Positions 6,036 through 10,686 of a stretch of 64,000 nucleotides of DNA are shown piece after piece (position 1 is the stretch's first letter; every line of letters begins with the position of its first letter). Location of the stretch: NCBI RefSeq assembly GCF_015732185.1, contig NZ_WIQM01000001.1, positions 1-64,000 on the forward strand, written 5' to 3'. The notes under the pieces were generated by a model. That model was not told where the DNA came from and did not search any database. It was given only the letters and a program-made list of their open reading frames with translations. The position numbers and the translations under genes were made by a program. The stretch is from Pectinatus haikarae. GTDB taxonomy: Bacteria; Bacillota; Negativicutes; Selenomonadales; Selenomonadaceae.

Positions 6036-6188
6036 TTGAGAAAAACAGCGTTTATTCTGCTAAGCATATATTTACTTCTGCTTATTACAGGCTGCGGTAT
6101 GTCTGATAAAGAAAAACAAAAAGATCTGGAAAATAAAATGGCAACTCTTAAAATTGCCGTTGGCATGTACATTGACCGGAAGACGTAA
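6036..6188 (+). CDS. 50-residue predicted lipoprotein (TTG start), unknown
   Basis: Starts at TTG 6036 after GGCAGGTGAG. A basic start (RKT), a hydrophobic stretch and the lipobox LITGC at residues 16-20 predict a lipid-anchored protein whose mature part has only ~31 residues (CGMSDKEKQKDLENK and so on). Its TAA overlaps the ATG of the next gene by one base, showing coupled translation. It resembles the small entry-exclusion or lysis-type lipoproteins of mobile elements only in size. Confidence 0.6.
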   Translation: MRKTAFILLSIYLLLLITGCGMSDKEKQKDLENKMATLKIAVGMYIDRKT

Positions 6189-6538
6189 TGGAATATTTCA
6201 AATTTCTGGAGGATAAACAACAGGAGGAATTCTGGGTCCTGCTGCTTAATACCAAAAACAATATCATAAAAGGAAAATGCATAACCATAGGAACCCTGGA
6301 CGCTTCCTTGGTCGGACCGAGAGAAGTGTTTCATGTGGCAGTCTGGAATATGGCTGCAGCAATTATTATTGCCCATAATCATCCGTCAGGTGACAGCGCA
6401 CCCAGTGAAGAAGATAAGGCCGTCACAAAAAGACTGACCGTTGTTGGCAAAATAATTGGTATTCCTCTGCTGGATCATATAATCATCGGCAAATACGGCT
6501 CACTCAGTATAAAGCAGCGAAAAGAAAGTACCGGTTAA
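6188..6538 (+). CDS. RadC-like JAB/MPN domain protein
   Basis: 116 residues consisting only of the RadC JAB domain. The metal site motif is seen as AHNHPSGDSAPSEED, with the conserved later LLDHIIIG. The N-terminal helix-hairpin-helix of chromosomal RadC is absent, as in the many short copies on plasmids, phages and conjugative elements. The biochemical role of these proteins is not established. It overlaps the lipoprotein gene by one base and ends the cassette. A compound hairpin follows. Confidence 0.8.
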   Translation: MEYFKFLEDKQQEEFWVLLLNTKNNIIKGKCITIGTLDASLVGPREVFHVAVWNMAAAIIIAHNHPSGDSAPSEEDKAVTKRLTVVGKIIGIPLLDHIIIGKYGSLSIKQRKESTG

Positions 6539-6730: not shown

Positions 6731-6919
6731 ATGAAAGATAAAAATGAACTCGATTCTACCTGTGGTTTATCCGATGAAGAACTTACTGTCAGATTTAGAG
6801 AAGCAGTGCGTATCGAAAATGAAATAAAGAAAATAAAAGGCCTGCCTATTGCCAAATATGATCATGAAAAAAACGCACCTTACATTGAATACCCGGACGG
6901 AAGAAAAGAATATGCCTAA
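6731..6919 (+). CDS. small acidic/basic partner protein of zeta-type toxin (putative antitoxin)
   Basis: 62 residues, helical and charged (LSDEELTVRFREAVRIENEI, KKIKGLPIAKYDHE), ending YPDGRKEYA. AAAGGAGG precedes the ATG. Its stop codon overlaps the start of the zeta-family kinase by 8 bases, the arrangement typical of antitoxin-toxin pairs. The sequence does not resemble the classical epsilon antitoxin closely. A decayed copy of the same pair sits at 1650. Confidence 0.7.
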   Translation: MKDKNELDSTCGLSDEELTVRFREAVRIENEIKKIKGLPIAKYDHEKNAPYIEYPDGRKEYA

Positions 6920-7475
6920 AAAACCCGAAATAATAGTATTTGCCGGACCTAATGGCAGCGGAAAAAGCACAGTTACCCAAATGGCCAATATCATACCGCC
7001 TTATATAAATGCAGACGATATAAAAAAAGCTGTTCATTGTACTGATCTGCAGGCTGCGCAAAGGGCTGAAGAACTGAGAAATACATTAATAGACCGGCAC
7101 ACAAGTTTTACTTTTGAAACAGTTTTATCCACCTCAAGAAATATAGAACTTTTAAAACGAGCAAAAAAAGCCAGCTTTTTTATACGATGTATTTACGTCC
7201 TTACAGCTGATCATCAAATCAATGTGATACGTGTAAAAGTCCGCACTGCTGCCGGCGGGCATGATGTACCCAAGGATAAAATTATCAGCCGCTACCAAAA
7301 AGCATTGGCACAAATTCCCCAACTACTGGAAATATGTGATATCTGTCATATTTATGACAACTCGGATGAATTTCCGTTTCGTATTTTTAAAAAACGCAAA
7401 AAGGATTATTTTTATTGGGAAAACTTATTCTGGAATAAAGAAAAAATAGAAAAATTAACGAATTGCAAATTATAA
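6912..7475 (+). CDS. zeta-type toxin (P-loop kinase family)
   Basis: 187 residues. Walker A is GPNGSGKST at about residues 10-18; the catalytic-region Asp lies in NADDIKK, and SFTFETVLS matches the conserved strand after it. Zeta/PezT proteins phosphorylate UDP-N-acetylglucosamine and block wall synthesis; related proteins with this FETVLS motif are annotated as zeta toxins although their substrate is less certain. The ATG at 6912 inside the upstream gene was chosen because homology begins there; a start at 6849 would add 21 residues with no meaning. A strong terminator follows. Confidence 0.8.
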   Translation: MPKKPEIIVFAGPNGSGKSTVTQMANIIPPYINADDIKKAVHCTDLQAAQRAEELRNTLIDRHTSFTFETVLSTSRNIELLKRAKKASFFIRCIYVLTADHQINVIRVKVRTAAGGHDVPKDKIISRYQKALAQIPQLLEICDICHIYDNSDEFPFRIFKKRKKDYFYWENLFWNKEKIEKLTNCKL

Positions 7476-8292: not shown

Positions 8293-8652
8293 GTGAATTG
8301 GCATATAGAATTTTATCAAAAAGAAAATGGTAAAATACCTGTGGCAGAATATCTGCATTCATTACCGGAAAAAATAAAAGCCAAGGCCATTTTAGAGATA
8401 GAACTTTTGGAGAAACACGGTACTGCCCTTAAAGAACCGTATGTAAAATATATTCAGGGCAGAAAATATCAGGGACTTTGGGAATTGCGAATAAAATTTT
8501 CTTCAGATACAGCACGTATATTATATTTCATTTTCGAGGGAGATACATTTGTATTGCTGCATGGATTCACCAAAAAAACCAATAAAACACCTGTTCAGGA
8601 ATTGGAAAAAGCAATACGCTATAGAAAAGATTATGAAGGGAGACGATCTTAA
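8293..8652 (+). CDS. higB: HigB/RelE-superfamily toxin (Gp49-like)
   Basis: 119 residues, GTG start after AGAAGGTG. The pattern FYQKENGKIPVAEYLHSLPEK, then GLWELRIKFSSDTARILYF and LLHGFTKKTNKTP, is that of the phage-derived Gp49-like/HigB family of ribosome-dependent RNases. Conserved basic residues in the WELRI and GFTKKT stretches fit the family's active region. As in higBA systems the toxin gene comes first, and its stop overlaps the antitoxin start by one base. Confidence 0.88.
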   Translation: MNWHIEFYQKENGKIPVAEYLHSLPEKIKAKAILEIELLEKHGTALKEPYVKYIQGRKYQGLWELRIKFSSDTARILYFIFEGDTFVLLHGFTKKTNKTPVQELEKAIRYRKDYEGRRS

Positions 8653-8936
8653 TGGTAAAGACCGGCGTTGACTTTGCCCGGATAAAAGAGCAAATGTTAA
8701 GCGACAGTGAAGTAAAAAAAGAATATGATAAATTAAAACCCCGTTATGAACTTATATCCCAGCTGATAAAGGTTCGTTCCGAAAAACAGCTTACCCAGGA
8801 AGAACTAGCCAAAATAATGGGAACGCAAAAATCCAATATCAGCCGACTGGAAAGCGGCAATTATAACCCGTCGCTTGATTTTATAATAAAGGCAGCCCAT
8901 TCACTGGGAAAGGAATTGGAGATAGTCTTAAAATAA
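8652..8936 (+). CDS. higA: HigA-type XRE antitoxin
   Basis: 94 residues. A toxin-binding N-terminal part (KKEYDKLKPRYELISQLIKV) is followed by the helix-turn-helix LTQEELAKIMGTQKSNISRL and the ESGNYNPSLDFI signature. It begins in the TAATG overlap with higB. It probably represses the pair through the palindrome at 8250-8271. A terminator follows. Confidence 0.9.
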   Translation: MVKTGVDFARIKEQMLSDSEVKKEYDKLKPRYELISQLIKVRSEKQLTQEELAKIMGTQKSNISRLESGNYNPSLDFIIKAAHSLGKELEIVLK

Positions 8937-8960
8937 CCGATAAATTTAATGATTTATTTT

Positions 8961-8993
8961 AAAAACTGTTGCAGACATTGCAGCAGTTTTTTT
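8961..8993 (+). terminator. terminator of higBA
   Basis: AAAACTGTTGCA pairs with TGCAGCAGTTTT (one G-U pair) around a short loop, followed by TTT. Confidence 0.75.
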
Positions 8994-9020
8994 ATGCCCA
9001 AAATGAAAGGAAAAATATAT

Positions 9021-9254
9021 ATGCCAATAGCTTATTTTATCTGCCCGGACGGCAAAAGGACAAGAATAATGAACTGTCTTAATAGGTGCCGGATGCGTGA
9101 AAGATGTATGTTTCTGCCGACCTTAAGAGCAATTGCCGCCTCCTCGGACAGGAAACTGCTTAAACCAAGCGTCACTGAGCTTATTGCCGGAACAAGAGAA
9201 ATATATCTGAAACGGACAAACGAATATGCCATAGATCCGTTCAATACATTGTTT
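9021..9254 (+). pseudogene. PD-(D/E)XK (Cas4/phage-type) nuclease, N-terminal part before an inversion
   Basis: 78 codons from the ATG at 9021 read MPIAYFICPDGKRTRI, the Cys cluster CLNRCRMRERC, and KRTNEYAIDPFNTLF. This is the start of a phage recombination nuclease. After 9254 the plus-strand frame goes on to 9497, but that part is the antisense of a real gene and has no family features. The rest of the gene lies on the minus strand from 9963 down to 9313. Joining TTT (9252-9254) to GCC (complement of 9961-9963) keeps the phase. Confidence 0.7.
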
Positions 9255-9963
9255 ACTGTCAGCTTCCGGATCATCCCCGGTAGCTATAATTTCTTATTCA
9301 TGTACTGTCCTCCTATATGGCAGGTTGTTCCTGCTGTTGTTTTAAGATTTTGGCATAAGGACACATTGACGCCGCATCGCAAAAGCGGAGGCATTTTCTG
9401 TCATACCAGCGTTCTTTGGCTGTACATACCGATGGCAATTGTTTATTTTTTAAAGCCTGCTGCAATTTATCGGCTTTATACTGAAAGTATCTTTTGAGCC
9501 ATCTATTACTTATTTTTATCAGGTACAGCGGTCTGGTTATCTCTCTTTCCATGGCAGCTCTGGTACTGAAGTCACGGCACAGTGCCTGTATGACCATGTC
9601 TTTTACTGCATAATCATTTGCTTCCAGCAGCATCCGGTAATAGTTAAGCTGTAAGGCCCAGTCCGTGACATGACGAACACCGTTAAAACAGGTATGTTTC
9701 TTAAATTTAGGCTGTCCTTTTTTCAGGCCTGACTTATAAATTTCACCGGTAGATACGTCTTTTTTATAAATTCCCAGAGCCCGCATCAATTTATAGCTGG
9801 ACGTTACTTTCAGGTCTCCTAAGATGCTGTCCTCATTATTTAAGACACAACCAAACATATCAAACTGGCCGGAAGTTATGTCGTCTTCCAGTCTCACCTC
9901 AGCTAAAATATTATCATCCTGTTTTTTATAATTCATATAATGGACGGCCTGTCCGTGTAAGGC
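9255..9963. other. 709-bp inverted segment inside phage recombination genes
   Basis: Flipping 9255-9963 joins ...NTLF to ALHGQAVHY... and gives a ~294-residue nuclease. The same flip joins ...GDDPEADS (minus strand, 9255 side) to KTDENTLQPK... (9964 onward), so both ends are restored in phase at once. Only about two bases (TT) are shared at the junctions, with no long inverted repeats and no invertase gene nearby, so this looks like an illegitimate inversion and not a switch. Confidence 0.72.
9313..9963 (-). pseudogene. PD-(D/E)XK nuclease, catalytic and C-terminal part (inverted)
   Basis: Open on the minus strand from 9963 (first ATG at 9936). ALHGQAVHY starts the domain; SGQFDMFG and LGDLKVTSS supply the catalytic Asp and the Asp-x-Lys of the PD-(D/E)XK site; LQLNYYRMLLEAN follows. 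The end has a Cys group, KCLRFCDAASMCPYAK, with another Cys upstream, like the iron-sulfur site of Cas4/AddB-type nucleases. Its beginning is at 9021 on the other strand. In its present state it might still be made from the ATG at 9936, lacking the N-terminal Cys cluster. Confidence 0.65.
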
Positions 9964-10152
9964 AAGACTGATGAAAATACGCTGCAGCCAAAGCCCGCAG
10001 AAAAAAAGAAAAACACATCAGTAAAACCTGTGAAACCGACTTGTGTGGAATGCGGAGTAATTCTGTCTGACAAGGTGAAAACCTATTCCATGGAAAAATA
10101 CGGCAGGCCGCTTTGTATGGAGTGTCAGAAAGGTGCTAAGGTAGTGGCGTAA
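9961..10152 (+). pseudogene. C-terminal zinc-ribbon fragment of a phage recombination protein
   Basis: The plus frame reads KTDENTLQPKPAEKKK, a linker, then CVECGVILSDKVKTYS and KYGRPLCMECQKGAKVVA before TAA at 10150. Two CxxC pairs form a zinc ribbon of the type seen at the C-termini of phage single-strand annealing (RecT/ERF-like) proteins and nucleases. No start codon is in frame. After undoing the inversion it is continued by GDDPEADS from the other junction, and directly follows the nuclease gene. Most of its N-terminal part is already lost. Confidence 0.55.
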
Positions 10153-10195
10153 AATATAAAGCTGCTGCCATTGTACTGGCAGCAGCTTTATATTT
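10152..10195. terminator. strong bidirectional hairpin terminator
   Basis: AAATATAAAGCTGCTGCC and its exact reverse complement form 18-bp arms around an 8-base loop. The AT-rich ends give T-rich tracts on both strands. Confidence 0.8.
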
Positions 10196-10204
10196 ATCCT
10201 TTTA

Positions 10205-10507
10205 TTATATTTAGAGAGTTTTTTGGATCATACGGGAAAGCCATGTATCCTACAACTCCTTCACAATGGTTCAGCAAGTTTTTGAAGCGTAAGGGACTGC
10301 CTCATATGCCATTCCATGCATTGAGGCATTTATCGGCCACTCTTCTGATTTCGCTTGGTATACCGTTAAAAAATATAAGCAGCAGATTAGGCCATGCCGA
10401 TATAAGAACCACTGCCAATATCTACGGTGAGGCATTGCAATCAGTTGACCGGCAGGCAGCAGACCAGCTGGATCAGTATTTTAGAAAAACGATAAATAAA
10501 CAGGCCT
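10205..10507 (+). pseudogene. tyrosine integrase fragment, catalytic C-terminal domain
   Basis: The frame after the terminator reads REFFGSYGKAMYPTTPSQWF, then FHALRHLSATLLISLGIPLK, LGHADIRTTANIYGEAL and a basic tail ending NKQA. H-x-x-R, the G-H pair and the nucleophile Tyr of the tyrosine recombinase box are all present. The N-terminal arm-binding and core-binding domains and the first catalytic Arg are missing, and a terminator lies directly upstream. It is thus inactive. The stop codon touches the right 43-bp direct repeat. Confidence 0.85.
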
Positions 10508-10550
10508 GAACCTGCCTGTTTTTCACAATAAGGGACAAATAAGGGACAAA
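10508..10550. repeat. 43-bp direct repeat, right copy
   Basis: Identical to 2229-2271. It begins at the integrase stop codon and ends 60 bases before the CCA end of tRNA-Thr. Confidence 0.75.
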
Positions 10551-10610: not shown

Positions 10611-10686
10611 TGGAGCTGGCAATAGGAATTGAACCTACGACCTGATCATTACGAATGACCTGCTCTACCAACTGAGCTATGCCAGC
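10611..10686 (-). tRNA. tRNA-Thr, anticodon CGU
   Basis: The minus strand folds into a complete cloverleaf: acceptor GCTGGCA pairs with TGCCAGC, D-arm GCTC-GAGC, anticodon stem GGTCA-TGATC with loop TTCGTAA (anticodon CGT at positions 34-36), and T-arm with GGTTCAATTCC. The discriminator is T, and CCA is encoded. It reads the ACG codon. It marks the right border of the island, though its 3' end is not repeated elsewhere in the window. Confidence 0.95.

Follow-up and report, generated by a model that had tools for sequence, protein, structure and literature searches.

It is very probable that a recent, one-off, non-homologous inversion inactivated the exonuclease of an exonuclease-Erf gene pair in Pectinatus haikarae, within a degenerating phage-like element that lies beside a tRNA-Thr gene. 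The DNA analysed, referred to here as the window, comprises positions 1 to 64,000 of the forward strand of contig NZ_WIQM01000001.1 (assembly GCF_015732185.1). The features of the locus are collected in Table 1.

Table 1. Features of the inverted locus and its surroundings (window coordinates)
Feature	Position	Strand	Remarks
Exonuclease, N-terminal part	9021..9254	+	78 codons; four family-invariant cysteines (alignment positions 8, 19, 23, 29)
Inverted segment	9255..9963		709 bp; ends with a 2-bp inverted match only (TT/AA)
Erf internal piece	9255..9288	-	IATGDDPEADS; carried in the inverted segment
Deletion joint (approximate)	9288..9289		Inside the inverted segment; about 636 bp of P. brassicae absent
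Exonuclease, catalytic and C-terminal part	9313..9963	-	216 codons and stop; GQFD, GDLK, QLNYYRMLL and four C-terminal invariant cysteines; PHROG 2139, E = 1.4e-13
Erf C-terminal tail	9964..10152	+	KTDEN...CVECG...CMECQ; without Erf domain
Terminator-like stem	10152..10195	+	Perfect 19-bp stem, past the Erf tail
Tyrosine integrase, C-terminal fragment	about 10234..10503	+	89 residues (313-401 of the P. brassicae integrase)
tRNA-Thr (CGT)	10611..10686	-	Adjoins the element; P. brassicae element at the same site

The split nuclease gene

A first-pass annotation of the window had proposed that inversion of 9255-9963 divided a phage nuclease gene, that both ends would rejoin in phase and that the junctions share about 2 bases. 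All of this was borne out. Reversal of the segment in silico gives a single frame of 294 codons from 9021 to its stop, with no internal stop. At the left restored joint TTT meets GCC in frame (NTLF-ALHG), and at the right one GACAGT is followed by AAGACTGATG in the frame of the Erf tail (EADS-KTDE). The inversion is conservative at both ends and the 2-bp TT/AA match is the sole junction homology. Judged from the sequence, a 709-bp inversion with these breakpoints is real and not a product of chance.

The phage-type nature of the nuclease is supported by the PHROG 2139 profile (exonuclease; PD-(D/E)XK, RecB-like), which matched the minus-strand fragment alone with E = 1.4e-13, the frame read through the joint with 9.1e-18 and the homologue of P. 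brassicae with 4e-21. No family was matched in Pfam and NCBIfam scans, and solved structures searched with the profile of the nuclease family gave chance matches only. A structure prediction made from two sequences reached a pLDDT of 31 and was not used. In a tblastn search of a phage collection one distant nuclease was found, in a Pelagibacter phage, with 28% identity. An alignment of 21 nuclease sequences shows conservation of FD112-113, GDLK127-130 and QLNYY183-187, which we take to be the catalytic motifs D ... (D/E)xK ... QxxxY of the family. The family also has nine invariant cysteines, four of them near either end, a pattern reminiscent of Fe-S or zinc binding. The inversion has placed the N-terminal cysteines (8, 19, 23, 29) and the C-terminal ones (261, 272, 276, 282) on fragments of opposite strand. 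It is unlikely that either half would work alone.

The joint falls inside a conserved L(F/Y)ALHGQA stretch, across which the aligned homologues are ungapped. The restored frame is free of stops and retains 90 of the 92 positions at which 20 homologues are invariant; its dN/dS relative to P. frisingensis is about 0.1-0.2, which would fit a gene under constraint until not long ago. For P. brassicae dS approaches saturation, and that comparison was left out. From this state of preservation it follows that the break in the nuclease, as read from the frame, is recent. The restored protein also carries a 3-residue in-frame deletion relative to its homologues (columns 228-230), which may be a lesion of earlier date.

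Gene order in relatives and the lost Erf domain

The uninverted order claimed for the ancestral locus was recovered in two congeners. In a whole-genome DNA comparison, one continuous single-strand run of P. frisingensis matches window positions 8949-9257 and then 9965-9314, and window 9287-9252 runs directly into 9964-10204; the locus has about 86% DNA identity to the window. P. brassicae has the same uninverted order, with an intact nuclease gene of 297 aa that is about 75% identical over its full length. A three-way alignment of the window with these two species crosses both restored joints without gaps. The P. frisingensis copy is also decaying: its nuclease is frameshifted, and its Erf gene is interrupted by a stop.

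By protein search the nuclease was matched in 46 of 189 family genomes. The best matches in these 46 are mostly single full-length frames across the breakpoint, with a minority of fragments, so that database proteins spanning the restored joint do exist at full length. Only the P. haikarae genome, among the 46, has the nuclease on two strands, and among all 189 there was no relative with the present arrangement as complete genes. In IMG/VR the present left joint gave one exact match of 18 bases, to an unrelated sequence, and neither the present right joint nor the uninverted left joint gave any.

The second gene of the pair encodes an Erf-type single-strand annealing protein, as identified through its P. 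brassicae homologue (PF04404, E = 2.7e-17; PHROG 155, E = 5.6e-32). The P. brassicae Erf gene has 205 codons and starts 267 bp past the nuclease stop. Measured against that species, the roughly 636 bp that are missing at about 9288/9289 comprise the Erf start, the N-terminal ~130 codons and the spacer. Thus P. haikarae has lost the beginning of the gene together with the larger part of the Erf domain, and no match to the domain was found in the window or anywhere in the genome. It had been claimed that undoing the inversion restores both genes. This holds for the nuclease but not for Erf, of which only a headless tail is regained, because a separate deletion of ~0.64 kb removed the N-terminal Erf domain. 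At other loci and in one viral contig the nuclease is followed by Erf on the same strand; the pair is therefore an ordinary phage recombination module. With its nuclease split and its Erf domain deleted, the pair in the window would be dead.

The decaying element beside tRNA-Thr

Other parts of the element are reduced as well. The P. brassicae integrase is full (401 aa); in that of the window the first 312 or so residues are missing. Also without a counterpart in the window is a stretch of about 5.6 kb that in P. brassicae separates Erf from the C-terminal part of the integrase and carries an excisionase-like HTH gene and three further genes. Four further proteins of the P. brassicae element were unmatched in the window. 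Within that interval of P. brassicae (L012:6868-10553) there are genes of 539 and 627 aa without a Pfam or PHROG match, and the 627-aa protein has a P-loop-like GKTNTGKTS motif.

A second integrase remnant lies at 2045-2283 of the window and is 85% identical to the P. brassicae integrase over residues 62-123. It abuts a 43-bp exact copy of 10508-10550, the sequence past the other integrase fragment, with AAGGGACA repeats. This arrangement suggests either two tandem decayed insertions or a duplication of the attachment site, about 8.3 kb apart. Just upstream of the broken nuclease is a toxin-antitoxin-like pair (8293-8936), consisting of a Gp49-like (HigB-type) protein and then an HTH antitoxin-like protein. 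A RadC-like JAB domain protein (6188-6538) and a zeta-toxin-like kinase (6849-7475) are apparent cargo, missing at the matching place in P. brassicae.

Origin of the inversion and comparison with known systems

On the most probable reading, a 709-bp non-homologous flip broke the exonuclease gene of an element that was shedding genes regardless: its Erf domain, the greater part of its integrase and the genes in between were lost or never acquired. Such a flip would be a loss-of-function event that serves no purpose itself. Its probable origin is template switching associated with repair, or end joining of a double break. No member of the Ku family was found in the P. haikarae genome; a Ku-independent route would therefore be likelier than Ku-dependent end joining, which is disfavoured. 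A search of the literature on Pectinatus prophages and microinversions found nothing directly relevant.

The inversion and the internal deletion could also be the outcome of one complex event, for instance template switching during repair, instead of two steps. The deletion joint is only 34 bp from one inversion breakpoint, which is consistent with such an origin, but intermediates are not known, and the further deletions in the element indicate that it has repeatedly undergone independent losses; a single event is thus the less probable course. That the inversion was created by the assembly is very unlikely. The sequence at both joints is unique, with 2 bp of homology and free of repeats on which an assembler might go astray; the assembly is of high completeness, with 17 contigs, of which this one measures 164 kb; and the surrounding element bears marks of independent decay. 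The two nuclease fragments could in principle have become separate functional genes, as both frames are open (182 aa on the plus strand and 207 aa on the minus strand, the latter with the catalytic motifs). Against this, the last 100 or so codons of the plus frame are antisense sequence, the four invariant cysteines near the N-terminus are parted from the four near the C-terminus, the Erf domain of the partner is missing genome-wide and no relative among the genomes searched has the arrangement, so that this reading is highly improbable.

A reversible intragenic switch, in which site-specific recombination would turn the nuclease on and off, has to be weighed since the segment is intragenic, its open frame returns on flipping and the window contains integrase fragments. 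Known invertons have inverted repeats of 10-40 nt on either side and are flipped by invertases (PMC11892184). Here such repeats are absent: apart from the 2 bp at the joints, the longest exact inverted matches within 10, 20, 50 and 100 bp of the breakpoints were 4, 4, 7 and 7 bases, lengths that 50-97% of random site pairs with the same 709-bp spacing also reached, and no inverted repeat around the two breakpoints rose above chance in that comparison. A programmed switch is unlikely on these grounds, and the idea that both orientations occur side by side likewise gains no support. Moreover, the nearby recombinase sequence amounts to two integrase fragments (residues 62-123 and 313-401), the Erf partner stays broken in the flipped-back state and the flipped state occurs in no other of the 189 family genomes, which together leave little credence for an inverton. 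Least probable of all is a recombinase that would flip the nuclease on and off through a crossover of 2 bp, without any visible inverted repeats, both orientations being present in the population.

The one-off non-homologous inversion therefore offers an ordinary explanation; it opens no new mechanism and the locus gives no sign of a switch. Its value is that of a clear-cut case, resolved to the single base, in which a short non-homologous inversion destroyed a phage recombination gene, and in Pectinatus it adds to a picture of related elements decaying independently. Mainly, it calls for caution in annotation, where the two parts of the nuclease appear as partial genes or as genes unrelated to each other. 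The share of such inversions in prophage decay may be underestimated.

Among known systems, the exonuclease and annealing protein pairs of the lambda Exo/Beta type resemble the locus in that the nuclease and Erf (PF04404) genes of the relatives are adjacent and on one strand; unlike them, the window has its nuclease split by inversion and its Erf domain deleted. Intragenic invertons and phase-variable inversions likewise consist of a short segment inverted within coding sequence, but the segment in the window is without inverted repeats at its ends, an intact neighbouring invertase or a second orientation in the genomes searched. Microinversions through non-homologous joining are known from decaying prophages, and these the locus resembles in being short and conservative, with joints that are nearly blunt, and in lying within an element that carries several other lesions. 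Nothing notable separates the two, save that the event is recent enough for both joints to remain legible base by base.
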